From the NCBI GenBank assembly GCA_017448795.1, contig JAFSKV010000019.1, positions 1 to 51,579 on the forward strand: a stretch of DNA of 51,579 nucleotides, read 5' to 3'. The DNA is from Synergistaceae bacterium. GTDB lineage: Bacteria; Synergistota; Synergistia; Synergistales; Aminobacteriaceae. The position numbers and the translations under genes are program-made. Shown here one piece after another: positions 4,806 to 50,625 of the stretch. Under the pieces are notes generated by a model. That model searched no databases. It was not told the DNA's origin and worked only from the letters and a program-made list of their open reading frames with translations. Within the stretch, counting starts at the first letter, position 1. Every line of letters starts with the position of its first letter.

Positions 4806-5846
4806 TTAGTGTCTGGATTTCGTGAGGGTGGTTGCCACGAGGGTGAGTGCGAGGACTGCCGGGAATGAGGAACAGCCTCCTCCGCCTGATGATGTTCCGG
4901 GTGTAGGCTCTGGGTCTGGTTTCGGAGTCGGGTCTGTGGTCGTCTTGGACATCACGATATGGGTGCTGAAAGTCCGCGCTGTGTCAGCCGCAAGATCTGC
5001 CGCCGCAATTATCGTGCCGGGCAGTGTGGTTACCGTTCCGCCTGACTCCGTGAAGATTTGCGCCGTCGTCAGGGATTTTGTGATTGCTGAGGGGCTGAAC
5101 GATGACTCCCCGAAAACGCTCCTGTCAGCAAGATACACCCTAAGCTCCGTGTCAGTCCCAACCAGATCCGCCGGAACAGTCAGGGGGAACGCGTAATATC
5201 CTGACTGGCTGACGTTGAGGCTTCCCTGCGTGGATATGACATCGAGGCTGAGGGCGGCCAGTGCGTTTGTGATGCGCGAGGTTGGGGCTTGGGGTGCGGC
5301 CATGTCGGACGATGATATGTAGCTCACGTTGTCGGGGGTTATGCCGAGTGCCTGAGCGATGGTGCTGAGGGCTTCGGGCTTGGGAGTCGGGACGGGGGTA
5401 TCTTGGCTGATTGGGCCGGGTGCTGGAATGTCCTTGCTGGTGTTGCCGCCGATGTCATCGCTGATGGGTGCGGGGTCGTCGTTGCTCGTGTTTCTGGCAG
5501 GAAGGACAGTCATACGACATTGAGTAGACCCCACATCGTATGTGCCATCGTCGTACTGTACAGTAGCTCTAACGGTGAAAAGGAAATCTCCTGCAACTGT
5601 CGGCTTCCCCCTGATTTTGCACCTATCGTCTGGTGTTTCCTCAAGGTAACAGTTCGGTGGCAGCTCTCCTTCTGTAACCCTAAATGTAACCTCAGCAGAG
5701 TTAAACAGCAGAACGCTTATTTCTGCATTTGCTTCTTCGCCCACGTAATTTTCATAAGTCTTGAAACGCACCAGCACTGCCCACGACACCGCCGCCATGA
5801 CCCCAACCAGCACCACAGCCAGCACCATTACCGCATACTTCTTCAT
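4806..5846 (-). CDS. Secreted Ig-like protein with Synergist-CTERM anchor
   Basis: A 346-residue surface protein. An N-terminal signal segment (about residues 3-24) precedes a putative Ig-type domain of the He_PIG kind (GELPPNCYLEE, then IRGKPTVAGDFLFTV). A Pro/Asp-rich linker, a second domain and a Pro-rich stretch follow, then the tail SSGGGGCSSFP, a hydrophobic stretch and a short basic end. That tail matches the Synergist-CTERM sorting signal known only from Synergistetes. The second domain (GITPDNVSYISSSD, then SGYYAFPLTVPADLVGT) is clearly related to one in the protein at 48481-49575. The start at 5846 is chosen for the upstream GGAGGAG. Function is unknown; an exposed adhesive or structural role is inferred. 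Confidence 0.8.
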   Translation of the reverse strand: MKKYAVMVLAVVLVGVMAAVSWAVLVRFKTYENYVGEEANAEISVLLFNSAEVTFRVTEGELPPNCYLEETPDDRCKIRGKPTVAGDFLFTVRATVQYDDGTYDVGSTQCRMTVLPARNTSNDDPAPISDDIGGNTSKDIPAPGPISQDTPVPTPKPEALSTIAQALGITPDNVSYISSSDMAAPQAPTSRITNALAALSLDVISTQGSLNVSQSGYYAFPLTVPADLVGTDTELRVYLADRSVFGESSFSPSAITKSLTTAQIFTESGGTVTTLPGTIIAAADLAADTARTFSTHIVMSKTTTDPTPKPDPEPTPGTSSGGGGCSSFPAVLALTLVATTLTKSRH

Positions 5847-5991
5847 GCTAACTCCTCCAGTCATGAAATGTTTTGCCGCAAAATCCACAATACACATGAC
5901 CGCGTCCCCTTGGGTTATGGTATAATAGCAACATAAAGTAAGGGAGACGGGATTCTTTCTCGCCATGTGTTATGATTTTACGAGCAAAGTA

Positions 5992-24600: not shown

Positions 24601-25065
24601 TATGCTTCCGTCCGCCATCTCCACGAAAGGCCGGGTGCTTGTGTCAGTCCCGCCGAAGATATATTGCCCGGCTACTTTGGTGTTGAGGTTGTCGAGCATA
24701 ATCTTCTTGTTCGCCTCAATCTGCGCGGTAATGTCCTTGAGCTGGTCAGCGTTCAATGCGCCGTCCCCCGCCTCAATGACAAGGCTCCGTATCGACTGCA
24801 CAGCGTCAAGCACGTTGTTCAGGGCCGAGTCCGCGTAACGCAACATTGTGATTCCGTTTGACGTGTTGGACTGGTACTTGTCGTTTGCGTTCATGGCCGA
24901 CTGCACCGCCAGTGAGCGCGATATTGCCGCTGGGTTGTCGGATAACTTCGTATACTTGTTGCCTGTGGCTATCTGTTTCTGGAGCTCCTGAATGTTGCGC
25001 TGGCTCTGGGACAGGGAGTCCATCAGGCTGCCGTACATTGTTGATGTCGTTAATCGGCTGTACAT
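21616..25065 (-). CDS. flgL: Flagellar hook-associated protein 3 FlgL, giant form
   Basis: A 1149-residue FlgL, where 290-500 is usual. The first 150 residues (MYSRLTTSTMYGSLMDSLSQ, QIATGNKYTKLSDNP, QYIFGGTDTSTRPF) and the last 130 (RSGANTMRQNGFGVINDIIS, DPAEAISQLMVADYMYQANL) are ordinary FlgL coiled-coil ends. Between them lie about 850 extra residues with repeating modules: segments ending in ADQLGLST or EDALGLST followed by TGTGM or TGTGI occur twice, resembling flagellin_IN-type surface domains. FlgL joins hook to filament. ATG 25065 has AAGGAGA upstream; the frame extends 24 codons further through a terminator. The extra mass should project from the junction surface. Confidence 0.9.
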   Translation of the reverse strand: MYSRLTTSTMYGSLMDSLSQSQRNIQELQKQIATGNKYTKLSDNPAAISRSLAVQSAMNANDKYQSNTSNGITMLRYADSALNNVLDAVQSIRSLVIEAGDGALNADQLKDITAQIEANKKIMLDNLNTKVAGQYIFGGTDTSTRPFVEMADGSIQYQGTDDRIKYAVSESLLGDVSFAGSDIVPENEDSYFICSHKVSLDWTWQGREEKVQITVGNRTLSVFIPEDWKDSDYNKTNKYTKLVNYTDANGYRDPGELTGISLQDLCDIVNGSLEEQGADMIVHAYIERDEESGTQQLFLKSNTGEKVGITGWPDTDYMPVEAETSTVDLSGGNWKPSGDETSLLRIAVGSPSPSNLTDEQISRKRDEIKANNPALTDDEADEKLSDELITEGIVLITKNDTAESLAEKINKINGVLARTSADGKKVVITAERTGDLPEDRLRIDESKEALHYPSLTIKAEGKAVNMFEFKTGEDTLTARSETRKLDHSHMDVFDVLGMETAMKSREFGMDDVLTVEEGEQLHWRVTSGGRTADIKLNSDTYTMEDLASRLKNAGTGWLEVTVSEDVKDDAGLGTLDNEEKTQRLVIRGFNGEQVIFLDMNKNHYADQLGLSTALRTDAYTDTQTGTGMKCVDFPSAPCVDDNVGIPMRVQMNCGMYYDVNIKKADVVDPETGFVDRALVMQSVVDQVNEIEGHDIMGFVRHVDSDGTEIPGSCAMYFLSGEAFTVVDMPFSDPEWNDYSGGLAAQMGIHGGATSNLQQTRVTMKDNATFGSAYADPDANPDGVTFREGTIRFSNLSHSVEIDVSADDTVKDVMDRLRTQAGDWLYVNYYDQHMGQQATRNTGDYPIIAVSSVDGSAVNVLDVKGHIAEDALGLSTSVQGRLNEDGTGTGIMGFEWKMKTDTEEADFPADTMSITVAGYTHTLDLTALRDVTADDKIKADDVVEFVNARMQDYDVQAEINRDGELMLWSPRGYSVKVEFAGNNDTAAFLGDDTSTRSYYRGGYNLEGSASTRGIDDDNMYADGIHAQNATIRSGANTMRQNGFGVINDIISAVEAGNRDDIADKMLPRIDSFISNILSVMAENGALQARYSYNTERLVSENAVMTEQYDDLAKVDPAEAISQLMVADYMYQANLAVIARLIQPSLLDFLS

Positions 25066-25090
25066 GATGATAATCTCCTTCATTGAGGGT

Positions 25091-25124
25091 AAAAAAAATT
25101 CCCTCCCGTTTCCTTCCAGGAGGG
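25091..25124 (-). terminator. Terminator-like hairpin between flgK and flgL
   Basis: Minus strand CCCTCC and GGGAGG pair around a 12-base loop and are followed by AATTTTTTTT. It lies in the 87-base gap between two genes of one operon, so it may attenuate flgL expression. Confidence 0.65.
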
Positions 25125-25152
25125 TGTGAAATTTCAACGGGTTATACTTGTT

Positions 25153-28100
25153 TTATCGGCCTACAAGCCCCATCCCGTTAATTACGGTGTTAAGCATCTC
25201 ATCCATCGTGGTTATGTAGCGCGACATCGCCCCGAACGCACGGTTGAGTATCACAATGTCCATCAGTTCCTCGTCTAGGTTGACCCCTGAGCAGGCCTGC
25301 CTCTGCGAGTCTATCTGGTCTGACACTGTGGCCTGAGTCGTGTACATGAGCTTTGCGTGTCCTGCCTCCGTGCCAATCTGCGAGAGCATAGCGTCATATA
25401 TCCCGCCGATTGTCATTGTCCCGCCCTCAAGAACCTTCGCGAAATTCAGGTTTACCATGCGTGAAGCGTTCGTGCCGTCTCCTGAACCGCCGCTCTTGCC
25501 TGAGACTGCGAGGCCGTCAGCATTCTTCTTGCCCATAGCCGCGCCGATTAATGACGGGTCATAGGCTACACGGTCTGTTACGCTGAGTTTCTCGGAGGCA
25601 CCTGACTTGAACGCAAGATTGTTGAAGAAAGCGACTCCCGTTGTGTCAATGTCGGACGCAATCCCGTAGCCTGAATACTGGTAGGCGTTGACCGTCTTCA
25701 TGAGGCCGTAAGCCATCTCGTCAAGCTCGCTCTTCAGGTTGGGTATCATCTCGTCCCTTGCTTCCTCAAGCCCCTTGATTGAGCCGTCGCGGATGTGGTG
25801 AAGGACGCGGATTGTTGTCGTCCCGGTGCTCTTGAGGTTGAGCCACATTCCGGGGTTGACTTCGGACAGCTCGGCTGCGGTGTAACGGCTGTGAATGTCG
25901 CCTGATGTCGCGGGGATTCTCCGGGCCATGCTGAATTTGTTGTCACTGGAAAGGTAACGCACTCCGTTGAGGCTGAACGAGGCATCTGTTGACACACCAG
26001 ACTCAGGAATGTAGGCAATTTCCCTGTAGCTTCCATCCTCGGCGAAGTCTGAGCCTATCTTCTGGTTACGAGTGAGTCCCAGCCTCCGCAAGACCTGCAT
26101 ATTTCCGTCCTCACTGCCCATGAGCGTTATCCTCTGTGCTTCCCCTGCAACGTTGGCGGAAATCTCAAGATACCCGTTATCCGTCGAGGCATGTACCCAT
26201 TGTTCCGGCTCAGTCAGGCCAAATTCCTCCTGATACTTCTCGTTGATCTTGTTGCGTATCGTTATGAGGCTGTCGGAAGTCTCAACGTCAATCGTGATTA
26301 CAGGGCTGTCATTGGCCATTCCCATAGACGCGGCCAATTTCCCCTCAACGTCAGAAATCGACACAAGATAGTTGTCCTTAGATTCAACGTAGAACTGTGT
26401 GAACGTTCCTGACGAGGATTTTCCGGCGGTTACCCTCATTCCTGAAAGCGCGGGGTTGTCGGAGCTTCCTGACTTGGTGAACGTCGACGACAGGAAATCG
26501 GTCAATGCCTTCACCGTGAGAGTCGCGCCTGCTTCTGTGCTGTTGCCTAAGTCGGAGCTGAGTATCCATTTGCCTGTTGATGCGTTCCATGTGGCGGAAA
26601 TATCGACTTGGTCGCCTGACACTCCGATTCTGAATGTGTGCTTTCTCACTGCGTCCGTGTCATCGCTGCGAATTGAGGTCAGTATCTCGCCTTCCTTGAG
26701 GTACTTGCCGGGGTTCGCGCTGAAGTTCTTTGATGTTACGCGTGTTCCCTGTGTGCCTACCTGAATCCTGAATGAGCCGGATATATTCAGTGGGTCGTTG
26801 ATGTCTGTGGGGTCTGTGCGCATGTTGACGCTGAGGAGTTCGCGCTTGGCCTCAGTGAGCGCGCCGAGCATCCCGCTGTAGTCCGTAAGCTCAACGGGGG
26901 AATTGTCAGCATTGGCCGTGAAGACTATCGAGCTGTCATCCTGTGCCGCCTTAAGCCCGACACCCAGGCTCCCTGCCTTAGCGTTGATGAAGTCCACAAG
27001 TGAGGCTACTGTGAGGTTTCCCGTTGTGCCTTCACCGTCAACCGTAACTGTGTCTGAGACTGCCTGCGATATTACGTTGCCGCTAGCATCCTTCTCCGGG
27101 ACTCCGTCCTTCTCCGCTCTGAGTGTCCAGCCCCCCGTGCTGTTCTTGTCGATCTTCACCGTGAGGACACTGGGATTCTCGTTCTCGTCAAGCACGCGGA
27201 ACTGCAGCTTGTACGGAATATCCGCGCTCGTGTCAGTAAGGATTCTCCCGTCAGCAAAATCCGCCGTCTTCACCGCGTATGTCTCTAGGCAGTGAGCATT
27301 TCCCCCGCCGATTGTCCATTCTTGCCCGTTCGCTATCCTGTCGACCGCAAGCTGATACGCTCCCTCAGCACCCGTAGCAAGTGCCTCCGCAATGTTCGGG
27401 TTCTCCACAATGTCAAACTCGTTTTCCGCAACCTGAACATCATAGTACACCTGATTGTCCCACATGAACGCATGAGCCCTAAGCTCCCTCACGTTCGTAC
27501 CCTGTACTAGGACTCTCCCGTTGACTGACAGGAAGAACTCGCCTTTTACCCCGTTGTGTTCGAGAGGCTCATTGTAGGATATATCCATCATCTTGGAGAG
27601 CTTATCTAGTATCACATCACGGGAGTCGCGCAGGTCGTTGGCATTCTGTCCCAATACTTCAGCCTGGTATATCTCAAGGTTGAGCGCGGCCACGTCATGA
27701 AGCATTGAGTTTGCCTCATCTACTGCCTGCTTGACCTCCATGTTGATTGACTCGTTGTAGGTGTTGAAGCTGTCTATGAGGTTGCCGAGCATTGTGCCGA
27801 GTGAGTTTGCTGACGTTACGAGTGCCTGGCGCGCTGAAGTGTCTTCGGGCTTCTCCTGCAAGGTCTGCATGTTCGTGAAGAATGTATCCATCGCAGAGCG
27901 TACCCCGGAAGAATTTGGCTCGGATATATAGTTCTGGATAGACTCGTAAAGGTCATTAATCTTCTCCCAGTATCCTAATGTCGACTGTGAATCCCTAAAC
28001 TGGAAATCTAGAAATTCATCGCGTATTCTCTCTATGCTGGAGGCCGTCATCCCGTTTCCGAGCTGTCCGACACCGTAAATATCTTCAGGCGTTGCGGTCG

Positions 28101-28233
28101 CAAAATTCACACGCTGGCGGGAATAGCCCTCCGTGTTCATGTTCGAGATGTTATGCCCGACTGTCTGCATACCAAGCCGGAAAGCATTTAACGCACTCCT
28201 GCCTAACTCAAGTCCTCCGAATGTGCTGCTCAT
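25153..28233 (-). CDS. flgK: Flagellar hook-associated protein 1 FlgK, enlarged form
   Basis: A 1026-residue FlgK (usual length about 450-650). The N-terminus (FGGLELGRSALNAFRLGMQT, VGHNISNMNTEGYSRQRV) and C-terminus (VSDQIDSQRQACSGVNLDEE, LNRAFGAMSRYITTMDEMLN) carry the flagellar rod/hook family motifs. The centre is expanded by about 450 residues of Ser/Thr/Asp-rich beta-type domains, with related pieces such as NLTVASLVDFINA and LTVKALTDFLSS that suggest duplication. It is the first hook-filament junction protein. flgN, its export chaperone gene, ends six bases upstream. Confidence 0.92.
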   Translation of the reverse strand: MSSTFGGLELGRSALNAFRLGMQTVGHNISNMNTEGYSRQRVNFATATPEDIYGVGQLGNGMTASSIERIRDEFLDFQFRDSQSTLGYWEKINDLYESIQNYISEPNSSGVRSAMDTFFTNMQTLQEKPEDTSARQALVTSANSLGTMLGNLIDSFNTYNESINMEVKQAVDEANSMLHDVAALNLEIYQAEVLGQNANDLRDSRDVILDKLSKMMDISYNEPLEHNGVKGEFFLSVNGRVLVQGTNVRELRAHAFMWDNQVYYDVQVAENEFDIVENPNIAEALATGAEGAYQLAVDRIANGQEWTIGGGNAHCLETYAVKTADFADGRILTDTSADIPYKLQFRVLDENENPSVLTVKIDKNSTGGWTLRAEKDGVPEKDASGNVISQAVSDTVTVDGEGTTGNLTVASLVDFINAKAGSLGVGLKAAQDDSSIVFTANADNSPVELTDYSGMLGALTEAKRELLSVNMRTDPTDINDPLNISGSFRIQVGTQGTRVTSKNFSANPGKYLKEGEILTSIRSDDTDAVRKHTFRIGVSGDQVDISATWNASTGKWILSSDLGNSTEAGATLTVKALTDFLSSTFTKSGSSDNPALSGMRVTAGKSSSGTFTQFYVESKDNYLVSISDVEGKLAASMGMANDSPVITIDVETSDSLITIRNKINEKYQEEFGLTEPEQWVHASTDNGYLEISANVAGEAQRITLMGSEDGNMQVLRRLGLTRNQKIGSDFAEDGSYREIAYIPESGVSTDASFSLNGVRYLSSDNKFSMARRIPATSGDIHSRYTAAELSEVNPGMWLNLKSTGTTTIRVLHHIRDGSIKGLEEARDEMIPNLKSELDEMAYGLMKTVNAYQYSGYGIASDIDTTGVAFFNNLAFKSGASEKLSVTDRVAYDPSLIGAAMGKKNADGLAVSGKSGGSGDGTNASRMVNLNFAKVLEGGTMTIGGIYDAMLSQIGTEAGHAKLMYTTQATVSDQIDSQRQACSGVNLDEELMDIVILNRAFGAMSRYITTMDEMLNTVINGMGLVGR

Positions 28234-29131: not shown

Positions 29132-29683
29132 CTATTTCTTCCTGAAGAGTGCGAACCCTGCCAGCAGTAAGCAGACGGGCAATGTTCCTGCGTTGCATCC
29201 TCCGCTTGAGCCGCCTCCGCCGCTTCCGCCGCTGTTGTACCTGATCGAGTCGTACACGGTGGTGAAGTCAGTCCCGCTCACGTACTCGGTGTATGACACG
29301 ACACAGTAGACATCCGAAGGGAACGTGCTTTCCGTGTTATAGTCGAACACGCGGGCGTTCCATATAAGGCCGTCGCTGTCAGTGTAGACGAAATCATAAT
29401 AGTAATCGTGAGCCGTCAAGCCTGAGCCTCTGTAGTAATCGTAGCAAAGGTAGTCAGCGATTTCTGAGAGATAAGAACTGCCCTTTGACCCCAGTTCGAC
29501 ATAAATCCGCCCTGTGCTGGGATAATAAGGGTCGTACAGGTCAACATAGGAACTGCTGCTGCCGCTTACCGCCCAGCCGTCGGGGACATAAAGCGATATG
29601 TCGTAGAATGTCTGGTAGCCCGCTAATGCCGCCGAGACAAGCAAGGAAACTGCCGCAAGTGATAATGTAATCTTACGCTTCAC
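29132..29683 (-). CDS. Small secreted Tyr/Ser-rich protein with Synergist-CTERM anchor
   Basis: A 183-residue surface protein. The signal peptide (ITLSLAAVSLLVSAALA) is followed by a Tyr/Ser/Asp-rich domain: ISLYVPDGWAVSGSSSSYVD and DYLCYDYYRGSGLTAHDYYY, with VPDGW near its start as in small secreted proteins of the same general type. The tail GGSGGGGSSGGCNAG, hydrophobic stretch and FRKK end fit the Synergist-CTERM signal well. It starts at GTG 29683 with AAGGAG nine bases upstream. It is a single gene between a TGCTATAAT promoter and a strong terminator. Function unknown. Confidence 0.8.
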   Translation of the reverse strand: MKRKITLSLAAVSLLVSAALAGYQTFYDISLYVPDGWAVSGSSSSYVDLYDPYYPSTGRIYVELGSKGSSYLSEIADYLCYDYYRGSGLTAHDYYYDFVYTDSDGLIWNARVFDYNTESTFPSDVYCVVSYTEYVSGTDFTTVYDSIRYNSGGSGGGGSSGGCNAGTLPVCLLLAGFALFRKK

Positions 29684-29723
29684 TGTGAACACTCCTTGTG
29701 ATTGTTTTGGGTGATTAAATGTC

Positions 29724-29732
29724 ATTATAGCA
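29724..29732 (-). promoter_or_regulatory. Extended -10 promoter
   Basis: Minus strand TGCTATAAT, about 40 bases before the GTG start at 29683; same element as at 5992-6000 and 1725-1733. Confidence 0.55.
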
Positions 29733-41355: not shown

Positions 41356-41388
41356 AAAAAAAATCCCCCTCACCTTCGCGGCAAGGGG
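41356..41388 (-). terminator. Terminator at the end of the envelope operon
   Basis: Minus strand CCCCTTGCC pairs with GGTGAGGGG (two G-U pairs) and is followed by ATTTTTTTT. A GGTAAAATATC -10-like element for the LarA-like gene follows at 41345-41355. Confidence 0.85.
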
Positions 41389-41404
41389 AATATTTCTTCT
41401 GTGC

Positions 41405-42853
41405 TTACATGTTTGCTGATGCTGCTTTGCTGAGTTTCTTTGCCGGGCTGTATCTTGGGTTGACGCTGAGGGATTTTTCCGCCCATTCTTTGGCCTCACG
41501 GTAATGGCCTATGTCATACATGATTTTTGCCGCCTGATACGCCGCGAAATAGTCATACGGATGATCCCTGAAAAGCTCCGTGTACCTGTCGAACTTCTCG
41601 TCGCGTGAGAGCATATTCTCGGCCTGCCTGTGATGCTCCTTGAGGCTCCGGGCTTCGCTGTCTGACAGTCCGTAGCTGGCTATGACTTTTGCGGAAGATG
41701 TTGAAGTGTTCTCCAGCTTCGTGGAACTGCTGCGTCTAAGGGTCATGCCGTCGTCAGCAAAACTTGCCCCTACAGTTCCTTCCGGCTTTTTTTCTTCCGG
41801 GGCGGGGTCAGTGCGTGATATGCTCCCGAGCCTGCTGTCAAGCTCACGGCCTTCAAGTGATGAGCTTCCTACCGGTCTGCTGCGCGGAAATGCATTCCTC
41901 TGCACAAGGTCAGAAAACTCCCTCTGTGAAATAGACTCTATCCTGTCTCCTCTGCGTACAAGAGATATATTCCCGCCGTTTTGTGCAATTCTGGCCGCGC
42001 TGAAATCGTTCTGCACTTCAGACACGACTACAACAGCTATAGGAGTCGTTCTTCTGCCCAAGACATTCCCGCGCATGTCCCGGATTTCCTCGCCTTCCGC
42101 ACTTATCTTGTAGATGTTCCCGACCTTAACGCCTGAAGTAGCCCCTATGCTGAGGATTATTTCACGGCTTCCTTCACCGAGAACCTGCGGATGTTCGCCT
42201 GTTACCTTCTCCTTTATCCTCTGGCCTATGCGCGCAACAGCGTCTGATACCGCCGCATCCTGAAGGTTGACGCTCTGTTTCCTCGAAGAAGCGTCAGAAG
42301 TCCCGGAAGATTTCCCGGAAGTCGTGCTTCTTGCCGTGCCGGTCTCAGCGATCGCAAGGGCAACCTCGGCAGTGCTGACATCGATTATCTGCACGTCAAG
42401 CGTAACTTCAGCCTCTTCCGTCTTCTCGACTTTCTTGCTGCTCACAGCCTCGCCCAGAGTCTTGCCGAAAAGAACACCTACCCACGCGTTTTTGTCCTCA
42501 GCCTGTGATGTCTCGTTCTTGCTGAAGCCTGTTACAGCTCCTGCTATGATGTACTGGACTCCTGCAAGCCTCCCGAGCTCCGCGGCCGTCCTAGGGTCGA
42601 CAAGCCCGGAAAGATTCAGCCTGTGTTCGCGCGCTATGGCTTCAAGATGGTAACGGTCAGTTACTGCTATTGAGTACGAACTCGCAAGCATACGGGTAAG
42701 TTCGTCTGATGCTGACGCGGCATTTGCTGAAGAGAAACCGCTTGTCTTAACGTCAAATTTCAGCACGCCTACACGCAATATATCCCCTGCGTGCGCCCTT
42801 CCGGCAAAAAGAACAAACGCAAGCAGAACAACCAACATTCTACGCAGCTTCAT
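41405..42853 (-). CDS. CsgG-like envelope protein with FlgT_C-type and TPR domains
   Basis: About 482 residues. A signal peptide ends at AHA. Residues about 25-190 have the CsgG/TolB_N-type fold: ILRVGVLKFDVKTSG, ITDRYHLEAIAREHRL-like TDRYHLEAIAREHRLNLSG, GVQYIIAGAVTGF and LDVQIIDVSTAEV. A second domain (SGVKVGNIYKISAEGEEIRD, RTTPIAVVVVSEVQ, VRRGDRIESIS) resembles FlgT_C. A Ser-rich linker and two TPR-like helical hairpins (YDYFAAYQAAKIMYDIGHY and HYREAKEWAEKSLSVNPRY) end the protein. It is the last gene of the nine-gene operon and a paralogue of 49600-50550. No lipobox, unlike E. coli CsgG. Outer-membrane or periplasmic ring role is inferred. Confidence 0.72.
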   Translation of the reverse strand: MKLRRMLVVLLAFVLFAGRAHAGDILRVGVLKFDVKTSGFSSANAASASDELTRMLASSYSIAVTDRYHLEAIAREHRLNLSGLVDPRTAAELGRLAGVQYIIAGAVTGFSKNETSQAEDKNAWVGVLFGKTLGEAVSSKKVEKTEEAEVTLDVQIIDVSTAEVALAIAETGTARSTTSGKSSGTSDASSRKQSVNLQDAAVSDAVARIGQRIKEKVTGEHPQVLGEGSREIILSIGATSGVKVGNIYKISAEGEEIRDMRGNVLGRRTTPIAVVVVSEVQNDFSAARIAQNGGNISLVRRGDRIESISQREFSDLVQRNAFPRSRPVGSSSLEGRELDSRLGSISRTDPAPEEKKPEGTVGASFADDGMTLRRSSSTKLENTSTSSAKVIASYGLSDSEARSLKEHHRQAENMLSRDEKFDRYTELFRDHPYDYFAAYQAAKIMYDIGHYREAKEWAEKSLSVNPRYSPAKKLSKAASANM

Positions 42854-42876
42854 CTGTATCATTCTCCCTTCCTGTA

Positions 42877-43473
42877 TCATTCCCAGCTGTAGCGGGACAT
42901 TTCGGCAACATGCTTCTTCACGGCATCCCTTGCGGCTTCCTCAAGCTCTCCGCCGTATGACCGGGTTATGCCGTCTTTTGCTGACACTTTGGCTGACCGT
43001 CTCGCGCTTCCAAGCTCATTGTGAGCGTAAATATCTTCGCCCGTCGTGTTGTCTATTATCCTTATGTCGAGCATAACATAAGCTGTTTTCTCCTGCGGAA
43101 TCCCTCCTGTAAGTTTCCTGAAAAGCTCATTGCCGCCCTTCTCGTTGTAGAAATGCATCGTTATTGCCCCCGTCATGGAGTACTGGGCTCCCGTGATTTT
43201 CCGGGCCTCGATTGCTGTCGACTTGTCCACAAGCCCGGACTGAGAGAACCTTATTTCATCCGCGGCGTAATTGATCGCCTCGCGTTCTGTGAGGATGAAT
43301 ATTCTTGCCTTCCCCAGCTCCGTAATCATCATGTCGGTTATAGCTGAAGAAGGAACTGAAGGGTTGTCTGTCTTGTTGTCGAACTTGCGGACTGCCAGAC
43401 GCGGAACGGCCGGTAATTCAGCCGGGAAAATCATCATGGCCATGAACGCAAGCACGAGAAATTTCCGCCTCAT
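42877..43473 (-). CDS. Short CsgG-like secreted protein
   Basis: A 198-residue protein with a signal peptide (FLVLAFMAMMIFPAELPA) and one CsgG-type domain: PRLAVRKFDNKTDNPSV, ITDMMITELGKARIFILTER, SGLVDKSTAIEARKITGAQY, and LDIRIIDNTTGEDIY. It is a third relative of the proteins at 41405 and 49600 but lacks their second domain. AGGAGGG lies before the ATG. It ends 23 bases before the next gene. CsgG of E. coli is a lipoprotein pore for curli; no curli subunit is present here, so the curli role is not claimed. Confidence 0.72.
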   Translation of the reverse strand: MRRKFLVLAFMAMMIFPAELPAVPRLAVRKFDNKTDNPSVPSSAITDMMITELGKARIFILTEREAINYAADEIRFSQSGLVDKSTAIEARKITGAQYSMTGAITMHFYNEKGGNELFRKLTGGIPQEKTAYVMLDIRIIDNTTGEDIYAHNELGSARRSAKVSAKDGITRSYGGELEEAARDAVKKHVAEMSRYSWE

Positions 43474-43490
43474 TGCGTGTCCCTCCTGTC

Positions 43491-44099
43491 TCAGAATAAT
43501 TGCTGAAGCGCGTCCTTCACTGCCTGCTTCAGGGCTTTCTGCCTTGTCTCGTCAGCAGTGTAAGCTACAACTTTAGCGTCTGCTGTTTTCCCGCCGAGCT
43601 TCTTTCCGCCTGACGTTACCGCGAGGAGTGCCACAGATGCAGTGCCTGTGTACAGCTTGAACTCATTGCGTTCCGGGTTTCCTGCCTCTACATGTGCGAC
43701 AATTGTAGCCGCCGCGCTGTAGTGTGCGTTGATTCTGAGTATTGCCTCAACGTTGCCTTCAAGAGCGTAACGTGCCGCCTGAGCCCTCGCCGCAGCCATC
43801 CTTATGCGCTTCATCTTCGCCTCGTCAACAACACGGTATCCCCTCGACGCAAGCTCCTCGATTATCATCGCCTCAGCTATTGCCACGTGTTGGGGATTTG
43901 AGCCGTCAACAACGACTCCTATGTCGCCCCTTCTTGGGAGAACACGGCGGTGATTTTCTTCGCTTTTTGCTGACGTGGAAGAATCATCCAGCGAGTCCTT
44001 CACCTTGCTCCTGAGAAGTATTGCGGCCTGCGCTTCTCCCTGCGTGAAAAGAATCACAGCCAAGCACGCGAAGCCGAATACCCTTCGCGCTGTCGTCAT
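43491..44099 (-). CDS. Secreted protein of the envelope operon (CsgG-like fold possible)
   Basis: A 202-residue protein with a signal peptide ending near AQA. After a basic, disordered stretch it has GDIGVVVDGSNPQHVAIAEA and MIIEELASRGYRVVDEAKMK, then AAARAQAARYALEGNVEAIL, and ends in helices (ETRQKALKQAVKDALQQLF). The strand-helix pattern (two-strand start, long helix, repeated at RINAHYSAAATIVAHVEA) resembles the CsgG-like proteins next to it, at lower similarity. The start overlaps the preceding gene as ATGA, and GAGGAGG lies upstream. No firm family was recognised. Confidence 0.6.
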   Translation of the reverse strand: MTTARRVFGFACLAVILFTQGEAQAAILLRSKVKDSLDDSSTSAKSEENHRRVLPRRGDIGVVVDGSNPQHVAIAEAMIIEELASRGYRVVDEAKMKRIRMAAARAQAARYALEGNVEAILRINAHYSAAATIVAHVEAGNPERNEFKLYTGTASVALLAVTSGGKKLGGKTADAKVVAYTADETRQKALKQAVKDALQQLF

Positions 44100-44536
44100 G
44101 GTATATCCTCCTCTTCATCGTCAAGAATCCCGGACATGACCCGCCGGGTATCCTTCCCCTTCATGAGCTTGGATAAGTCAGTCTCAATCTTCACGAAATA
44201 CAGCCCTTCCTTCACGTCCTCAGATATGACCCTGAAAGGAGGAAGATTCCCGGAGACGCTTTCAGGTCTCGGACTCCTACCTTCACGCAGAGCTCGCCTG
44301 AGAATGAGAAGCCCCCTCTGCGCGTCAGTTATAGCCGCCCGTCTTGCGAAAACAATCCCCATGCTGCTATCAGGATCTATCCTCCCTACTCCTTGCGCAC
44401 TGGCAGTGTCAGCTTCAACGTCATAGCTCAGGCTCTCAACCGTCATCGTAAGGAGTTCCTCAACCGTATATTCACACATGGCCGGGACTCCCGCAGTCAT
44501 CATCAAGAGAAACGCGAGGCACAATTTATTTCTCAA
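44096..44536 (-). CDS. Small LPP20-like secreted protein
   Basis: A 146-residue protein with a signal peptide (LCLAFLLMMTAGVPA). It carries the hallmark of LPP20-type domains, a Gly-rich strand then a helix with ArgArgAla: SAQGVGRIDPDSSMGIVFAR followed by RAAITDAQRGLLILRRAL, and a later strand LYFVKIETDLSKL. TTG 44536 is chosen as start because GGAGGAG lies seven bases before it; the earlier in-frame TTG at 44554 precedes that site. It overlaps the FlgT-like gene by 11 bases. In Vibrio and Campylobacter the LPP20 family includes FlgP, a flagellar outer-membrane ring lipoprotein. Confidence 0.65.
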   Translation of the reverse strand: MRNKLCLAFLLMMTAGVPAMCEYTVEELLTMTVESLSYDVEADTASAQGVGRIDPDSSMGIVFARRAAITDAQRGLLILRRALREGRSPRPESVSGNLPPFRVISEDVKEGLYFVKIETDLSKLMKGKDTRRVMSGILDDEEEDIP

Positions 44537-45716
44537 TGGCCGACTCCTCCTCAATGATGAGAGTTGTTACACTGCCCGGGACGCTTCTCTTTCTCGCTTC
44601 GACAACAGCACCTGTTACTTCCGTGATGTCGTAATTTTTCCCCGCAAGAATGCCAGCGATGTCGTCGGCTGATTTGTCAGACACAATGTCAAGCTCAAGC
44701 TCATTCCCGTTCACGTAACGCCGCCGGTAAACGCCCGATATTCCCTCCGTGAAAGAAAGATCGTCCGTCAGCCTCCTTGATGCCGCGTAGTCTATATTCC
44801 TGATGATGACTTTGACGGTTCTTGTTGTACTCTGGCCTGAAAGAGCGTACGCTATCTTGTAGACTATGCTTGTCGCCGCCCTCGAAGCGCAAGAGCTGAG
44901 TCCCTTCGCCGCGCCCTCGCCGTATGATATTGCCTTGTTCCGGCTGGAGAATCCCTCGGAGCCTATGACCTGAGCAGTGTCAGCAAGAACTGCCTCAAGC
45001 CTCACCGAGCTGTTCACAGCGTATATAGTCTGTCCTAGAATGTGCTGCTTTGTTGAGACTGACGCGCCTGCACCGCCTGTGATGATGACATCAGCACGGA
45101 AATTTTTTGCCGCCGCCCTTATCTCCGAGTAATCACCCGCTGCTCTTGCCGCCTCAAGGTCTATGTCCTTCAGTACCTGAGCCTGCGACACGTTGATTAT
45201 CATGTAGCCGGCCTTCTCAAAAACTTTCTGGACTGCATTGCGTGCCGTTCCGTCCTTTAGCATTATCATGATGCGGGGGTTTCCCAGCGCGTCAATGACA
45301 GCCGGGCCGAGCGCGGAATCCAGCCTTGTCTCAGACACTCCGCACTCAGCTGTAACGTGGTACATTCCTTCATCGTCAACCCATTCGTCTTTGATGCTCA
45401 TACTGCTGACGAGACCCTTATACTGGGAAAAAATTTTGTCGCTCACCAGCTTGTAATTGCTCATCTTGGTTACGCTCTCGACGTATGAGCCTACTGACAT
45501 ATCAAGGGCGTTGCGGGCTAATTCCCTTCTTGCGGCCTCGCGGGCTTCTGCTCTGTTGCCTGCTGTTACGGGGGCTTTACCTTCCGCGCTTACTGTGATG
45601 AGTTTCCCGGCAGGAAGTGAGGGGGCTGGCTTCTTCTTTTTCCCGGCTGACTCTGCTGACACAGGGATAATAGCTATCATCAAGGCGAGCAGTAACAGCA
45701 ACACTTTTCTTTTCAT
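44526..45716 (-). CDS. FlgT-like secreted protein
   Basis: A 396-residue protein with a signal peptide ending near VSA. Residues about 40-130 match the FlgT N-domain pattern: ITVSAEGKAPVTAG, RAEAREAARRELARNALDMS, VGSYVESVTKMSNYKLVSDK, and DDEGMYHVTAECGV. A CsgG/TolB_N-like middle domain follows (PRIMIMLKDGTARNAVQKVF, AGYMIINVSQAQVL, RADVIITGGAGASV), then a C-terminal domain with VKVIIRNIDYAASRRLTDDL. FlgT forms the H-ring of the sodium-driven Vibrio flagellum. Here the gene sits among CsgG-like and LPP20-like genes. The exact role is inference. Confidence 0.68.
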   Translation of the reverse strand: MKRKVLLLLLALMIAIIPVSAESAGKKKKPAPSLPAGKLITVSAEGKAPVTAGNRAEAREAARRELARNALDMSVGSYVESVTKMSNYKLVSDKIFSQYKGLVSSMSIKDEWVDDEGMYHVTAECGVSETRLDSALGPAVIDALGNPRIMIMLKDGTARNAVQKVFEKAGYMIINVSQAQVLKDIDLEAARAAGDYSEIRAAAKNFRADVIITGGAGASVSTKQHILGQTIYAVNSSVRLEAVLADTAQVIGSEGFSSRNKAISYGEGAAKGLSSCASRAATSIVYKIAYALSGQSTTRTVKVIIRNIDYAASRRLTDDLSFTEGISGVYRRRYVNGNELELDIVSDKSADDIAGILAGKNYDITEVTGAVVEARKRSVPGSVTTLIIEEESAIEK

Positions 45717-45726
45717 GGCTGTATCC

Positions 45727-47409
45727 TTATGACATGACTATGATGACTTTGCATTCTCTGCGGAAATCCGTCTTGTTCCGGCGGATTTTGTCGGCTTCAG
45801 AGTTCGGGATGACAATATCCTCGCCGTTGCCCGCGAATCTCTGCGCCTTTATCACTAGGGGATTGTCGCCTACCCTCGCCTTCTCGTCAGCCGTAAGCAC
45901 AACCCTGCGGAAATAGACAAACAGCCCGTCCTTTGCCTGAATGCTTTTGTCAGCGTACTCAATCCCGTAAACAGAGCTGCCTTTCTCGTCGACAAGGTGA
46001 AAGAATTTCTGCTGGCTCACTCCGAGATGGCGGACATCAATAATCAGCCCGGTGTAAGTACCGGTCTTCTTGGGTTCACGGGGCTTCTTGAGGCTGATGA
46101 CATGACGGGCAACTTCCGACATTACCCCGGACAGCTGGGTATTCCTTATCTGCCCGGCTACTGTGTAGATTTTCTTTTCCGCGTCCCATTTCTCGCTTAT
46201 CACTTCAACGCCGGAAATAAGCCCGCTCACCTTTGTCTCCACAACGTCATACTTCAGGGCAAGCTGTGAAATACTCGTGCGCGAGTCTACCTGGACTCCC
46301 TTGACGGTCTCAAGAAGGTTGCGCTGAAGGTCAACAACGGCCGCACGTCTTGCTAGAATTTCCATCCGGCTGTCATTGATATTTTCCGGCGGGTATCCCT
46401 GGCCTATTGCGCGGACAGAGCCGTCTGACCAGTTGATTATTCCGTTGCCTGCCAGCGGGCTTGTAACAGAATCATTGCCCTTAACGCCGACCATGAGAAC
46501 GGAAACCGCTTCTGTCCCTGCGGGGGGATTGGGCTTCTTTGCGACGCGCAGCTCCTCATTCTTTGCGGCAAGGTCTGCGCTGAGTCTGTCTATAGTTGCC
46601 TTCTGCTTATCGCTGAGTTCTGCATAGCCGCTGATTTGCCGGGAGAAATCTTCAGCTTCTGCCCTGAGTCTTTCTGCCTCGCTGACTGCCCGGTCTCTCT
46701 CTGCTTTCAGTGCCTCAACGCCGGCTTTTTCCTGCGCAAATTTCAGCATATCTTCTTCAAGCTCTTTCTTCTGCTTGTTGTAGATTGACTGTGCGGCTTC
46801 GAGATTCTTTATCTGGCTGTCGAGCCCGGCAATTCTGGCGGCTACATCTTTGCTGAGTGAGTCCAGCCTGAGAAGGTCTGCCTTTGCTGTCTCAACGCGG
46901 GCAATTTCGCGCCTGACTCCTTCCTCTCGCTCTGTAAGCTCCCTTTCGCGCTGTGCAAGAAGGACTCCCTTTTCTTCCGCTGATTTGATTTTCTGGCTGG
47001 CTTCCCTCGCAAGACGCTCTGCATTTTCCGCACGCCTCTCAACTTCAGCCCTGTAACTGTCAAACTGCCTGCGGTCTCTTTCAAGCTCCCTGTTCTGTGA
47101 GGCAAGAAGAGCCGCGTCCCTGTTAAGCCCTGCTTTGATTTCGTCTAGCTCAACTTCCCGGACGGAAACCTCAATGTTCCTGCCCTGAATCACTTTTGAG
47201 AGTGCCTCAAGCTCTGCTGCTCTCCTGCTTAGTTCCTGCTCTTTGTCGTCAAGGCTGACTGACTGGCCTGACAAAATTACAGCGCGTTCCGTGAGCATCT
47301 TTTCGCGCTGGTCAAGTTTCTCCTCGCGCATGTCGGCATAAACCGGGCTGAACGATGAGAACACTGTAACAGCGGCCGCAATAAGTGCTGTGAATCTTCT
47401 GCTGTACAT
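45727..47409 (-). CDS. Secreted coiled-coil protein with LPP20-like domain
   Basis: A 560-residue protein. The signal peptide (RFTALIAAAVTVFSSFSPVYA) is followed by about 260 residues of charged coiled coil (EKLDQREKMLTERAVILSG, then many Glu/Arg/Leu heptads to ELRVAKKPNPPAG). The C-terminal half has an LPP20-type domain: VRAIGQGYPPENINDSRMEI, LARRAAVVDLQRNLLETVKG, then strands KIYTVAGQIRNTQLSGV, and a last domain TGLIIDVRHLGVSQQKFFHL. The coiled coil could bridge periplasmic layers. ATG 47409 has AAGGAG upstream; an 81-codon upstream extension of the frame runs into the ankyrin gene. The C-terminal part is like that of LPP20-type proteins at 44096. Confidence 0.7.
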   Translation of the reverse strand: MYSRRFTALIAAAVTVFSSFSPVYADMREEKLDQREKMLTERAVILSGQSVSLDDKEQELSRRAAELEALSKVIQGRNIEVSVREVELDEIKAGLNRDAALLASQNRELERDRRQFDSYRAEVERRAENAERLAREASQKIKSAEEKGVLLAQRERELTEREEGVRREIARVETAKADLLRLDSLSKDVAARIAGLDSQIKNLEAAQSIYNKQKKELEEDMLKFAQEKAGVEALKAERDRAVSEAERLRAEAEDFSRQISGYAELSDKQKATIDRLSADLAAKNEELRVAKKPNPPAGTEAVSVLMVGVKGNDSVTSPLAGNGIINWSDGSVRAIGQGYPPENINDSRMEILARRAAVVDLQRNLLETVKGVQVDSRTSISQLALKYDVVETKVSGLISGVEVISEKWDAEKKIYTVAGQIRNTQLSGVMSEVARHVISLKKPREPKKTGTYTGLIIDVRHLGVSQQKFFHLVDEKGSSVYGIEYADKSIQAKDGLFVYFRRVVLTADEKARVGDNPLVIKAQRFAGNGEDIVIPNSEADKIRRNKTDFRRECKVIIVMS

Positions 47410-47428
47410 GTGAATATCTCCTTTCTTG

Positions 47429-48445
47429 CTACCTGCTCTCTTCTTCGAGGCGCATAAATTCCTTCGTGTTGATGAGTCTGGGATTTCTGTTAGCGTGGTC
47501 AATTGGCGTGGCCATGTCGTGGGCGCGTACCTGAGGGTCATGGCCTGCCTCAAGAAGGACTCCGATAACTTCCGGGTGTTGTGTGTATCTTGCGGCCCAG
47601 AAAAGAGGAGTCCAGCCCCGTTTGTCGGCGAGTTCCTCTGCTCCTGCGTCAATGAGTGCCTTGACCGTTGCGGCGTTGTTGTTTCTTGCGGCGTACATCA
47701 GGGCGGTCATTCTGTTGAGGTCTCTTGCGTTGACGCTGGCACCGTTTGCGGCGAGGGCGGAAATTATTTCGGGCGACGGGTTGGACTTTGCGGCGTACAT
47801 TAGGGCTGTCTTGCCGTCCTTGTCTTTAGCGTCAGGTTTTGCGCCGAATCTCACGAGGACAACTATAACTTCAGGGTCAGAATTTTTCTCAGCCGCGAAC
47901 ATGAGGGGCGTAACATCGTAGTAATCTCTGGCATTGGGGTCAGCCTTCCTGTTTTCCAGCGCGTTAAGAACCACCTCACTTGATGCACCCGCGCACATTC
48001 TCATGAACTCATCCGGCGAGATTCCCGGGACATCAGCAGTCGGTTTATCCGGGACGACAGCGGGCGGTTCATCTTTCGAGACAACGGCGGGCAGCTCATC
48101 CTCTGAGACAACGGCGGGCAGCTCATCCTCTGAGACAACAGCGGGCGGCTCATCGTCAGAGACAACGGCGGGCGGCTCATCGTCAGAGACAACGGCGGGC
48201 GGCTCATCGCCTCCAGAAATTGGCGCGGCCGTATCGCCCAGCAACTTAAGCAGGTCGGTGTTGCTTGAAATCTGCGGGGTCTTCCGGGCATCCTTAAGTG
48301 CCTTCATGTCCTCGTCCTCCCTAATATCGACGTTTGCCCCCTCACTGACCAGAGTAGTTATTGGGCGTTCGTCAGCCAGCGCAAGAGACGGCAAGAACAT
48401 GGCCGACAGTGCGAAAAGTGAAGCGGTTACAAAACGTTTTGACAT
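47429..48445 (-). CDS. Secreted ankyrin-repeat protein
   Basis: A 338-residue periplasmic or surface protein. The signal peptide (FVTASLFALSAMFLPSLALA) precedes a low-complexity region of six nine-residue repeats of the type DEPPAVVSD, then about five ankyrin repeats: VTPLMFAAEKNSDPEVIVVL, GKTALMYAAKSNPSPEIISA, MTALMYAARNNNAATVKALI, and GWTPLFWAARYTQHPEVIGV. Ankyrin repeats bind partner proteins; the acidic Pro-rich linker may span peptidoglycan. ATG 48445 is 11 bases after GGAGG; an ATG at 48454 is closer but leaves only two bases. It lies inside the CsgG/FlgT-like operon. Confidence 0.82.
   Translation of the reverse strand: MSKRFVTASLFALSAMFLPSLALADERPITTLVSEGANVDIREDEDMKALKDARKTPQISSNTDLLKLLGDTAAPISGGDEPPAVVSDDEPPAVVSDDEPPAVVSEDELPAVVSEDELPAVVSKDEPPAVVPDKPTADVPGISPDEFMRMCAGASSEVVLNALENRKADPNARDYYDVTPLMFAAEKNSDPEVIVVLVRFGAKPDAKDKDGKTALMYAAKSNPSPEIISALAANGASVNARDLNRMTALMYAARNNNAATVKALIDAGAEELADKRGWTPLFWAARYTQHPEVIGVLLEAGHDPQVRAHDMATPIDHANRNPRLINTKEFMRLEEESR
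48051..48212. repeat. Six tandem copies of a 27-bp coding repeat
   Basis: Six in-frame 27-base units (each about GAGACAACGGCGGGCGGCTC plus seven bases) encode the D/E-rich PPAVV repeats of the ankyrin protein. Copies two to six are nearly identical in DNA, so the array is recent or homogenised and could vary in copy number between strains. Confidence 0.9.
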
Positions 48446-48480
48446 GGTAAACATAACCTCCTGTGAATTTTGTCGGGGAA

Positions 48481-49575
48481 TTACTCCTGCTTGGAGCGTG
48501 AGTCTTTCTTCCTGCAGGACTTGACGTCGGCTATCACGGCTACAGTTGCGCATACCGCTCCGATTCCGATTCCCGCGCTACAACCGCCTGCTAGGAGCAT
48601 CAGCAGTATCTTGACGAAATATGTTGTGAGGCTTGTCCCGGCAGATAACAGCATGGTAACCAGAAACTGCTTGGGAAGGGTGTCTATCTCCCAGCCGAAT
48701 AGGTTGCTGACCTCCCACATTCCCGTTACGCCGTTGAAGACTGACAGAAGCCCGAATGACGCGGTGAATGAGCCTGAGAAGTCAGAGCCTTCCGCGCCGA
48801 ATAGCCTCAAGTCGTTTACTGGCGTTCCGACCAGGTCATCAGACACTGTAACCATGAAGACATACCAGCCGTCTCTGCTGACCGTTATTGTGTTGAGCTT
48901 GGCGAGGAACTGGCCGTTCTGCTTCGATACTTCCTGCCTCATGGCCTGTGTTGGTTCGGGAGGGTCTGAGGTTGTGAAATCCGCGCTGGTTAGGAGGATG
49001 ATTTCTGACGGGTCAACGCTGATGTTCTGTGCTAGGCGGGATATTACGTCGTCGGTTAGGCTTGGGACTGGGGAGATTATGGCGGTTTCGAGTTCTGCGG
49101 GGGGGTCAGGTGATGTTACCGGGCCGGGGACAGGCGTAACATTGCCGCCGTTCCCGTAAGATGATGAGTCCAGAACCATGAAACTATATGAGGCCTGCAC
49201 GTTGTCAAACGTAGTGCCGCCGTCATCATATGCCGCTATAGCGAATGAGTATCCATTTGAGCTGTAGCCCTGAATGGAGTACTGTGTAAGAGTGCCGGAT
49301 AAAGTCGTAGTATTTCCTGTTGCCGTCGACAAGCTCACATCATCGGATGAATATGCGCCGCCTAGATTCCACGTAACTGTGCCGATTGGATTTTGTGCTG
49401 TGAATGTGATGCTAAAAGCCCCGCCTTGATTCACGTACAGAACCGGGGTGCCGTTCAGGTTTGAAGAGATGTCGGAAGTGATTCCTGTGATGGCTGACGC
49501 TGTCCCGCTGAATATCCCGGCGATGATAACAAAAATCACAACGCCGAGAACGTGGAGACTTCTTTTTTTCTGCAC
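48481..49575 (-). CDS. Secreted protein with Synergist-CTERM-like anchor, part of the envelope operon
   Basis: A 364-residue protein. A signal peptide (LHVLGVVIFVIIAGIFSGTA) precedes an Ig-like beta domain (GAFSITFTAQNPIGTVTWNL), a Pro-rich linker and a domain shared with the protein at 4806-5846: NISVDPSEIILLTSADF, GWYVFMVTVSDDLVGT and LRLFGAEGSDF. The C-terminus is a long hydrophobic region with GGCSAGIG, then a second hydrophobic stretch and basic residues (CRKKDSRSK). It resembles the Synergist-CTERM tail but is longer and has an additional Cys near the end. It probably anchors part of the apparatus to the surface. Confidence 0.75.
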   Translation of the reverse strand: MQKKRSLHVLGVVIFVIIAGIFSGTASAITGITSDISSNLNGTPVLYVNQGGAFSITFTAQNPIGTVTWNLGGAYSSDDVSLSTATGNTTTLSGTLTQYSIQGYSSNGYSFAIAAYDDGGTTFDNVQASYSFMVLDSSSYGNGGNVTPVPGPVTSPDPPAELETAIISPVPSLTDDVISRLAQNISVDPSEIILLTSADFTTSDPPEPTQAMRQEVSKQNGQFLAKLNTITVSRDGWYVFMVTVSDDLVGTPVNDLRLFGAEGSDFSGSFTASFGLLSVFNGVTGMWEVSNLFGWEIDTLPKQFLVTMLLSAGTSLTTYFVKILLMLLAGGCSAGIGIGAVCATVAVIADVKSCRKKDSRSKQE

Positions 49576-49599
49576 CGAAAAAACTCTCCTTTCATGATA

Positions 49600-50550
49600 C
49601 TATCTCGCTTTCCTGCCTTTCTTGCCGGGAAAAACTTTCCTCGCCGCAAGATTGTCCGCTTCCGCTTCCGTTATTGGCTTGACCACGTCCCCTTTCCTCA
49701 CATTCTGAAGCCAGCCCCTGACTCCGTCTTTCTTGCTTGGCTTAACCGATGTCAGTTCCTTCTGCACATTGTCCGCCTCAACCACAGCTATAGGTGTCAG
49801 CATTTTCCCCACAAATGCGCCGTCCTTGTCCCGAATTTCATCTCCCTCCATATAGACACACAGCAACTCTCCCGGATGAATGCCCCAGTTTTCCCCGGCA
49901 TCTATCACAGGCCAGTTGCTACCCCCGGCTCCTGACTTCACGACACGTACATATTCCCCCGCAAGTTTTTCGCGGATACTGAGGCACAACGCCGATACTG
50001 CCCTCTCAACAGCGGCTTCCTCAGCTCCCGCCTTCTTGCCTTTCTTCACGTCAAAGAACCATATACCGCCTCCTCCAGTTTTCCGGGACACCTTGCCTGT
50101 CTCGGAGAAAGAAGCAATTACTTCACTTGTCTGTACATCGATTATGCGTACGTCTATTGTAGCAGAAACTTCATGTTCTGTATCCTCAAAGCCGACAAAC
50201 ACGCGTTCTGTGTCCTTAGTCTCAAGCCCTGTAACAGCCCCCATCAGAATATAGCGGCATCCTGCGATCTTCCCAAGCTCCACAGCCTCGCCGTCCTTTA
50301 TCCTCCCTTCCTGAGTCATGTGATGCTCCCTGAGTACCTCGTCAAACCTGTAACGCTCAAGAAGTGTTATTGCCTTAGAGTTCGCAAGCCTCCGGGAAAA
50401 TTCATCGCCTATTGCTTCCGCCTGCTTGTCCGTAACTCCTTCAGTCCTTGATACGAACCTGACAACGCCGAGCCTTATGGGCTGGTTTTCCTCAGCGCAC
50501 GAAATTCCGCACAAAGCAAGAACGCACACGAGGCACAATATTTTCTTCAT
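49600..50550 (-). CDS. CsgG-like envelope protein with FlgT_C-type domain
   Basis: A 316-residue protein and the first gene of the nine-gene operon. The signal peptide MKKILCLVCVLALCGISC could end at a lipid-modified Cys (GISC) or at SCA; the lipobox is poor. The CsgG-type domain has IRLGVVRFVSRTEGV, ITLLERYRFDEVLREHHM, CRYILMGAVTGLET and IDVRIIDVQTSEVIASFSET. The second domain (WGIHPGELLCVYMEGDEIRD, MLTPIAVVEADNV, VRKGDVVKPIT) is shared with 41405-42853 and resembles FlgT_C. GTG 50562 is an alternative start, but AGAAAGG is better placed for ATG 50550. No curli genes are nearby. Confidence 0.75.
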   Translation of the reverse strand: MKKILCLVCVLALCGISCAEENQPIRLGVVRFVSRTEGVTDKQAEAIGDEFSRRLANSKAITLLERYRFDEVLREHHMTQEGRIKDGEAVELGKIAGCRYILMGAVTGLETKDTERVFVGFEDTEHEVSATIDVRIIDVQTSEVIASFSETGKVSRKTGGGGIWFFDVKKGKKAGAEEAAVERAVSALCLSIREKLAGEYVRVVKSGAGGSNWPVIDAGENWGIHPGELLCVYMEGDEIRDKDGAFVGKMLTPIAVVEADNVQKELTSVKPSKKDGVRGWLQNVRKGDVVKPITEAEADNLAARKVFPGKKGRKAR

Positions 50551-50576
50551 GGCTACTTTCACCTTTCTTGTAGTGA

Positions 50577-50610
50577 TAAAAATATCCCCCCGCCTTTTGC
50601 TGACGAGGGG
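50577..50610 (-). terminator. Terminator after the glucarate dehydratase gene
   Basis: Minus strand CCCCTCGTC pairs with GGCGGGGGG (9 bp with G-U pairs, AGCAAAA loop) and is followed by ATATTTTTAT. It separates gudD from the envelope operon. Confidence 0.75.
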
Positions 50611-50625
50611 ACAAGTTTACGTGCT

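Follow-up and report, generated by a model that had tools for sequence, protein, structure and literature searches.

The stretch of DNA analysed here (the window) comprises 51,579 nucleotides of a rumen Synergistaceae bacterium (assembly GCA_017448795.1, contig JAFSKV010000019.1, positions 1 to 51,579). At positions 50562-41405 it carries nine consecutive minus-strand open reading frames (ORFs), numbered genes 1 to 9, six of which (genes 4-9) probably encode a variant of the flagellar outer-membrane disk. Neighboring ORFs are separated by gaps of approximately 10-35 bp or overlap by 4-29 bp. The array is flanked by hairpins at 50613-50583 and 41391-41363, the two top terminator-like sites of the region. 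These findings bear out the proposal of an initial annotation, made from the sequence alone, that the genes form one operon between two terminators. The same annotation held that all nine products are exported and, consistent with this claim, a simple rule detected a basic N terminus and a hydrophobic stretch in each of them. Improved translation starts were assigned to the ankyrin gene (gene 3; approximately 48445, MSKRFV...) and the coiled-coil gene (gene 4; approximately 47409, MYSRRF...). The features of the operon are as follows.

50583..50613, minus strand: terminator-like hairpin with T-run, 12 pairs (7 G-C), between an upstream glucarate dehydratase-type gene and gene 1
49600..50562, minus strand: gene 1, exported protein of 320 amino acids, CsgG domain (Pfam CsgG, 69.9 bits) then a weak FlgT_C-like domain, without a TPR tail
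48481..49575, minus strand: gene 2, exported protein of 364 amino acids with a GC-x-AG, hydrophobic and basic (RKK) tail, read from the sequence as Synergist-CTERM-like
47429..48445, minus strand: gene 3, exported ankyrin-repeat protein of approximately 338 amino acids with acidic EPPAVVS-type repeats (Pfam Ank_2, E 3e-28)
45727..47409, minus strand: gene 4, exported protein of approximately 560 amino acids with a long coiled coil, a FlgP-like SHS2 domain with a hairpin-length insert, and a C-terminal domain like domain 2 of Tp0624 (profile and model)
44526..45716, minus strand: gene 5, exported FlgT-like protein of 396 amino acids with a FlgT_N/SHS2 domain, a TolB-N/CsgG/PelC-like middle domain and an ACT-like C-terminal domain (AlphaFold 2 [AF2] model, Foldseek and Pfam)
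44096..44554, minus strand: gene 6, small exported LPP20/FlgP-type protein of 152 amino acids, TTG start, without the hairpin insert (profile against the PDB: C. jejuni FlgP 9hmf_C, E 2.7e-8)
43491..44099, minus strand: gene 7, exported single-domain protein of 202 amino acids, akin to the gene-5 middle domain (cross-match with the gene-5 profile)
42877..43473, minus strand: gene 8, exported CsgG/LpoB-type single-domain protein of 198 amino acids (Pfam CsgG 57.1 bits and LpoB 40.9 bits, both over cut-off)
41405..42880, minus strand: gene 9, exported protein of 491 amino acids with a CsgG domain (Pfam CsgG, 72.9 bits), a FlgT_C-like domain and a TPR tail
41363..41391, minus strand: terminator-like hairpin with T-run, 12 pairs (6 G-C), 3' of gene 9

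Only approximately 20-33 bases (within 50562-50613) separate the upstream hairpin from the start of gene 1, and the operon promoter therefore overlaps the hairpin or precedes it.

Genes 4-9 are a conserved core module across Synergistota. Gene 5 was detected in 68 of 151 genomes of the phylum, and all or part of the order 4-5-6-7-8-9 recurred across families and in another class, as determined from 40 gene-5 loci and a separate gene-4 scan. Neighboring genes were counted in 24 loci that had a complete gene 5 with sufficient flanking sequence; these loci had been retrieved with gene 4 as the query, so that its own presence is no evidence. Near gene 5 in these loci were a CsgG gene (23/24), gene 7 (22/24), gene 6 (18/24) and gene 8 (11/24). 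The surroundings of the cluster varied between genomes. The initial annotation had treated all nine genes as one set; joint conservation was found for genes 4-9 but not for genes 1-3, which are missing from most clusters. Genes 1-3 were therefore rejected as part of the core and are additions of a few lineages. In one genus (genomes G039, G041, G053 and G081; loci L054, L053, L058 and L055), gene 5 lies apart from gene-4 relatives elsewhere in the genome; thus, the cluster can be split. Two planctomycete-titled records (L115 and L147; LVBB01, Phycisphaerales Planc_01) contain a Synergistota cluster and are probably mis-binned.

By sequence comparison, the SHS2 domain of gene 4 is related to FlgP. 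A profile of the C-terminal half of gene 4 matched seven PDB sequences, the best five being FlgP or FlgP-type lipoproteins. The strongest match was C. jejuni FlgP from the motor scaffold (9hmf_C, E 5.7e-16); other FlgP proteins matched at 5e-7 to 4e-5, Vibrio FlgP from the LPHT ring (8z5n) at E 3.5e-5, and Tp0624 at E 0.003. In the gene-4 model, the C-terminal domain superimposed on domain 2 of Tp0624 (5jir) with a Z score of 15.6 over 110 residues (root-mean-square deviation 1.5, 24% identity). Most gene-4 relatives lack the coil and are approximately 280-310 amino acids long. Within the FlgP family, the ability to form rings is reported to correlate with the presence of an insert that separates the SHS2 helix from the strand after it (PMC12222027). 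The gene-4 alignment with C. jejuni FlgP was gapless through this hairpin-length insert, which measured 27-28 residues in 24 of 24 cases, the hairpin itself being of low confidence in the model. Gene 5 was also gapless across the insert, and gene 6 was approximately 11 residues shorter there. Gene 4 is thus a predicted ring former, as perhaps is gene 5.

The AF2 model of gene 5 was obtained at a predicted local distance difference test (pLDDT) score of 84.5. When it was compared by Foldseek with 350,542 PDB chains, the first match was FlgT (3w1e, 2e-9) and the second was FlgT in the Vibrio LPHT ring (8z5n_0, 5e-9); the next matches, GNA1162, PelC, CsgG and LptE, fell on the middle domain. Alignment with 3w1e in VIA gave a Z score of 11.0 over 218 residues, a score equalled by PelC, CsgG and TolB, which aligned with the middle domain only. 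Pfam FlgT_N was found in 23 of 33 members of the gene-5 family (best 3.7e-9), the window member alone not being matched. The N, M and C domains of FlgT were not found in one chain: the C-terminal domain of gene 5 is ACT-like, not FlgT_C. Members of the gene-9 family carry FlgT_M (14/22), FlgT_C (10/22, best 1.2e-7) and TPR_2 (18/22), where the 22 rows include two of the gene-1 type. With CsgG/FlgT_M and FlgT_C present in this family, FlgT therefore looks, from its domain matches, to be split over two chains, gene 5 and gene 9.

The gene-8 profile matched solved CsgG in the PDB at 2e-5, with LpoB weaker than CsgG, and the gene-9 profile also matched solved CsgG; gene 8 is a possible counterpart of FlgO. 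For gene 7, only weak matches to LptE (E 0.005, under the Pfam cut-off) and LipL46 (E 0.004) were detected, and its profile returned nothing useful from the PDB. A fourth CsgG-domain protein of the same genome, at G000:C64:71627-72118 (L001), scored highest at 102.9 bits in a 694-amino-acid open frame.

Among the lineage additions, gene 1 is a paralogue of gene 9, with FlgT_M (E 4e-4) and FlgT_C (E 0.023) matches under the Pfam cut-off; its best-assigned homologues are confined to a few loci. In locus L073, a gene-1 homologue is adjoined by a gene-2 relative with a similar tail. An ankyrin gene accompanied the long coiled-coil form of gene 4 at 7 of 8 loci and was found at 1 of the 46 others. 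Much of the protein composition given in the initial annotation was recovered: at least three CsgG-fold paralogues (genes 1, 8 and 9, over the Pfam cut-off), two LPP20-type proteins (the C-terminal half of gene 4 and gene 6, which match solved FlgP), one FlgT-like protein (gene 5, by fold and by the FlgT_N matches of its family), a long coiled coil in gene 4 and ankyrin repeats in gene 3, so that the CsgG, FlgT and LPP20 folds are all present. No window protein alone exceeded the Pfam cut-off for LPP20 or FlgT; the family profiles support both. The Synergist-CTERM assignment was not confirmed, since gene 2 had no NCBIfam match even with the tail alone as query and the label rests on the look of the tail. 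Two further minus-strand genes of the window encode exported-looking proteins whose tails contain GC and are possibly of the Synergist-CTERM type: one at 29132-29725 (SGGCNAG...FRKK), and a gene-2 relative at 4806-5966 (tail with SGGGGCSS).

The module is strongly associated with flagella, as the annotation had suspected. FlgI was detected in 108 of the 151 Synergistota genomes. Six of the 68 gene-5 genomes lacked FlgI, and four of these six have FliF and FlhA; such extra flagellar genes were checked in exceptions and a few other genomes, and 113 genomes were counted as flagellated. Of the 68 gene-5 genomes, 66 were flagellated, compared with 47 of the 83 that lack the gene (Fisher p 2.5e-9, uncorrected for relatedness). 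At the genus level, 25 of 26 gene-5 genera were flagellated (p 1.7e-5, likewise uncorrected). A control gene of patchy distribution, that for UDP-galactopyranose mutase, showed no clear link to flagella (p 0.07 for genomes, 0.62 for genera). The window itself contains flagellar genes, as previously noted, which encode FlgN, FlgK and a flagellin-domain protein at 28695-21616, approximately 13 kb from the operon and with unrelated genes between. The flagellin-domain protein (1173 amino acids) and FlgK (1026 amino acids), both on the minus strand at 21616-28233, are approximately twice the usual length or more.

Genes 5 and 4 were also found paired, in most cases together with a CsgG-type gene, in Selenomonadaceae and other Negativicutes, in a Bacillota metagenome-assembled genome and in Armatimonadetes. 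The CsgG partner exceeded the Pfam cut-off for FlgT_C in locus L153 and for FlgO in the Armatimonadetes locus L155. FlhA was detected in 21 of the 25 non-Synergistota genomes with a gene-4 relative. An Acetonema longum FlgP has already served as a search sequence (PMC5758724), and the occurrence of FlgP in Negativicutes is therefore no novelty. Gene-4 relatives of Desulfoplanes and Gammaproteobacteria (L131, L141, L142 and L156) have a different gene context that includes long unidentified proteins, and no FlhA was detected in the L131 and L141 genomes.

Because the species of the phylum that keep the core set are nearly all flagellated, this set is probably an unrecognized variant of the outer-membrane ring. 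We therefore favor, with a probability of roughly two in three, the reading that genes 4-9 are the Synergistota version of a flagellar outer-membrane disk of the FlgO/FlgP/FlgT type (H-ring or basal disk). The homology, domain composition, conservation and link to flagella are shown by the data; for the formation of rings, their position in the motor, the function and the roles of the single proteins, we infer the following model. The core proteins would be exported by Sec, and the FlgP-like domain of gene 4, perhaps together with the N-terminal domain of gene 5, which resembles it, would oligomerize as rings around the L/P bushing. The FlgT domains would be shared out: gene 5 would carry the N-terminal and TolB/CsgG-like middle domains, gene 9 (like gene 1) would carry CsgG/FlgT_M and FlgT_C, and gene 8 would take the place of FlgO. 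The disk would anchor the flagellum at the outer membrane and help the hook through. In the sub-lineage of the window, gene 4 would have acquired its long coiled coil, and the operon would have been enlarged by gene 2, the ankyrin gene and a second gene for a CsgG/FlgT_C-like protein, additions that probably extend or brace the disk.

Several findings weigh against this reading. A canonical lipobox was found by the simple rule in none of the nine operon proteins, and FlgO (PF17680) exceeded its cut-off in none of 41 Synergistota relatives. Model confidence for gene 4 was moderate (pLDDT 70.6), with the insert mostly below 60. No flagellar family was among the 25 commonest in 113 proteins flanking the cluster, and in single-contig genomes the cluster lies far from flagellar genes. 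In 51 regions upstream of gene 4, motif searches returned no strict and two loose sigma-28 matches and no sigma-54 match, not above shuffled sequences. In one genome (G137, 89% complete), the full cluster is present, whereas FlgI, FliF, FlhA and rod genes are all missing; another (G122) likewise lacks these genes and has only a gene-5 fragment at a contig end. Some gene-4 relatives reside in genomes without FlhA. Finally, 47 flagellated Synergistota genomes have no gene 5, and flagella therefore do not need it.

The main rival to the disk reading is a general outer-membrane/peptidoglycan scaffold of flagellated diderms, outside the motor, in which the outer membrane would be braced over the wall by SHS2 and TolB/CsgG-like proteins, a role put forward for T. 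pallidum Tp0624; we consider it improbable, though the most credible of the alternatives. It is supported by the match between the gene-4 C-terminal domain and domain 2 of Tp0624, a protein with a divergent OmpA-like domain to which a scaffold role in the envelope or motor has been ascribed as a proposal (PMC5104382). A scaffold would also suit the position of the cluster, which does not adjoin flagellar genes, its presence in G137 and its absence from many flagellated species. However, FlgP is the best sequence match of gene 4, far above 5jir, the association with flagella holds inside and beyond the phylum, and the partner proteins carry FlgT_N, FlgT_C and FlgO domains.

Distinctly less probable is a CsgG-type outer-membrane secretion channel, with genes 1, 8 and 9 as pores and the other products, such as the ankyrin and CTERM-like proteins, as periplasmic adaptors or cargo. 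The three CsgG domains over cut-off, the matches of genes 8 and 9 to solved CsgG and the ankyrin and CTERM-like products encoded alongside are consistent with such a channel. Against it, CsgF was found in none of the 151 Synergistota genomes, so that curli-type secretion is unlikely; lipoboxes are absent, FlgT_C-like and TPR domains come after CsgG, and most clusters lack the ankyrin and CTERM-like genes. Of the initial suggestion of a periplasmic ring or secretion complex, possibly flagellar, the ring and the flagellum are well supported by the FlgP and FlgT homology, conservation and link to flagella; secretion is not supported, on the grounds just given, and neither is localization at the surface. 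A set of LpoB-like proteins that activate peptidoglycan synthases, together with accessory proteins, is very improbable: Pfam LpoB exceeded its cut-off in genes 8 and 9 and in 22 of 22 members scanned, but CsgG scored higher, the LpoB equivalog score was 33.9 of the required 110.55 bits, solved LpoB matched more weakly than CsgG, and FlgP and FlgT partners would be left unexplained.

Flagellar outer-membrane disks have been characterized in Vibrio, Campylobacter and close kin. A FlgP/FlgT/CsgG module in Synergistota, Negativicutes and Armatimonadetes would make disks an old feature of flagella that cross the outer membrane, would tie CsgG-type proteins to motor rings and would give a testable role to uncharacterized proteins, including Tp0624 of the syphilis spirochaete. 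More tentatively, and at somewhat less than even odds, these Synergistota and their relatives in the other two groups may carry a non-lipidated disk that combines a FlgP/Tp0624-type ring protein, a two-chain FlgT and multiple CsgG-fold subunits, maybe as the membrane anchor, with the coiled coil of rumen Synergistaceae maybe spanning the periplasm. If so, such disks would be of much greater age and wider distribution than the proteobacterial examples. In the literature searched, no paper on the flagellar motors of Synergistetes/Synergistota or their tomography was found.

Compared with known systems, the operon shares with the CsgG curli channel (the type VIII secretion system) a CsgG domain in three proteins; it differs in lacking CsgF and a lipobox, in its FlgT_C and TPR extensions and in its partners. 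In Treponema pallidum Tp0624 (5JIR), domain 2 corresponds to the gene-4 C-terminal domain, and Foldseek aligns both domain parts. The report on Tp0624 (PMC5104382), which does not mention FlgP, describes domain 1 as a sheet with a single long diagonal helix. Domains 1 and 2 appear to have the same arrangement as the SHS2 and C-terminal domains of gene 4 (45727-46521). Tp0624 differs by its added OmpA-like domain, and we know of no FlgT or CsgG partners of this protein.

The H-ring of the polar flagellar motor of Vibrio is made by FlgO, FlgP and FlgT, and the basal disk of Campylobacter by FlgP. With the latter, the gene-4 SHS2 domain aligns through the ring-forming insert; however, Campylobacter FlgP is a small lipoprotein, whereas gene 4 lacks a lipobox and carries additional domains. 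In Vibrio, FlgP and FlgO are lipoproteins, and the disk aids the flagellum in passing and anchoring to the outer membrane (PMC7990780). Like the H-ring genes, the operon encodes FlgP-like, FlgT-like and CsgG/FlgO-like exported proteins together, and among solved structures FlgT comes nearest to gene 5. Unlike them, it has no lipoboxes, FlgT over two chains, several CsgG paralogues, a TPR tail on gene 9, a gene 4 with a coiled coil and a Tp0624-type domain, and an ankyrin protein, with FlgO not at cut-off in Synergistota. Thus, the module would be a variant rather than a plain member of the known disks.

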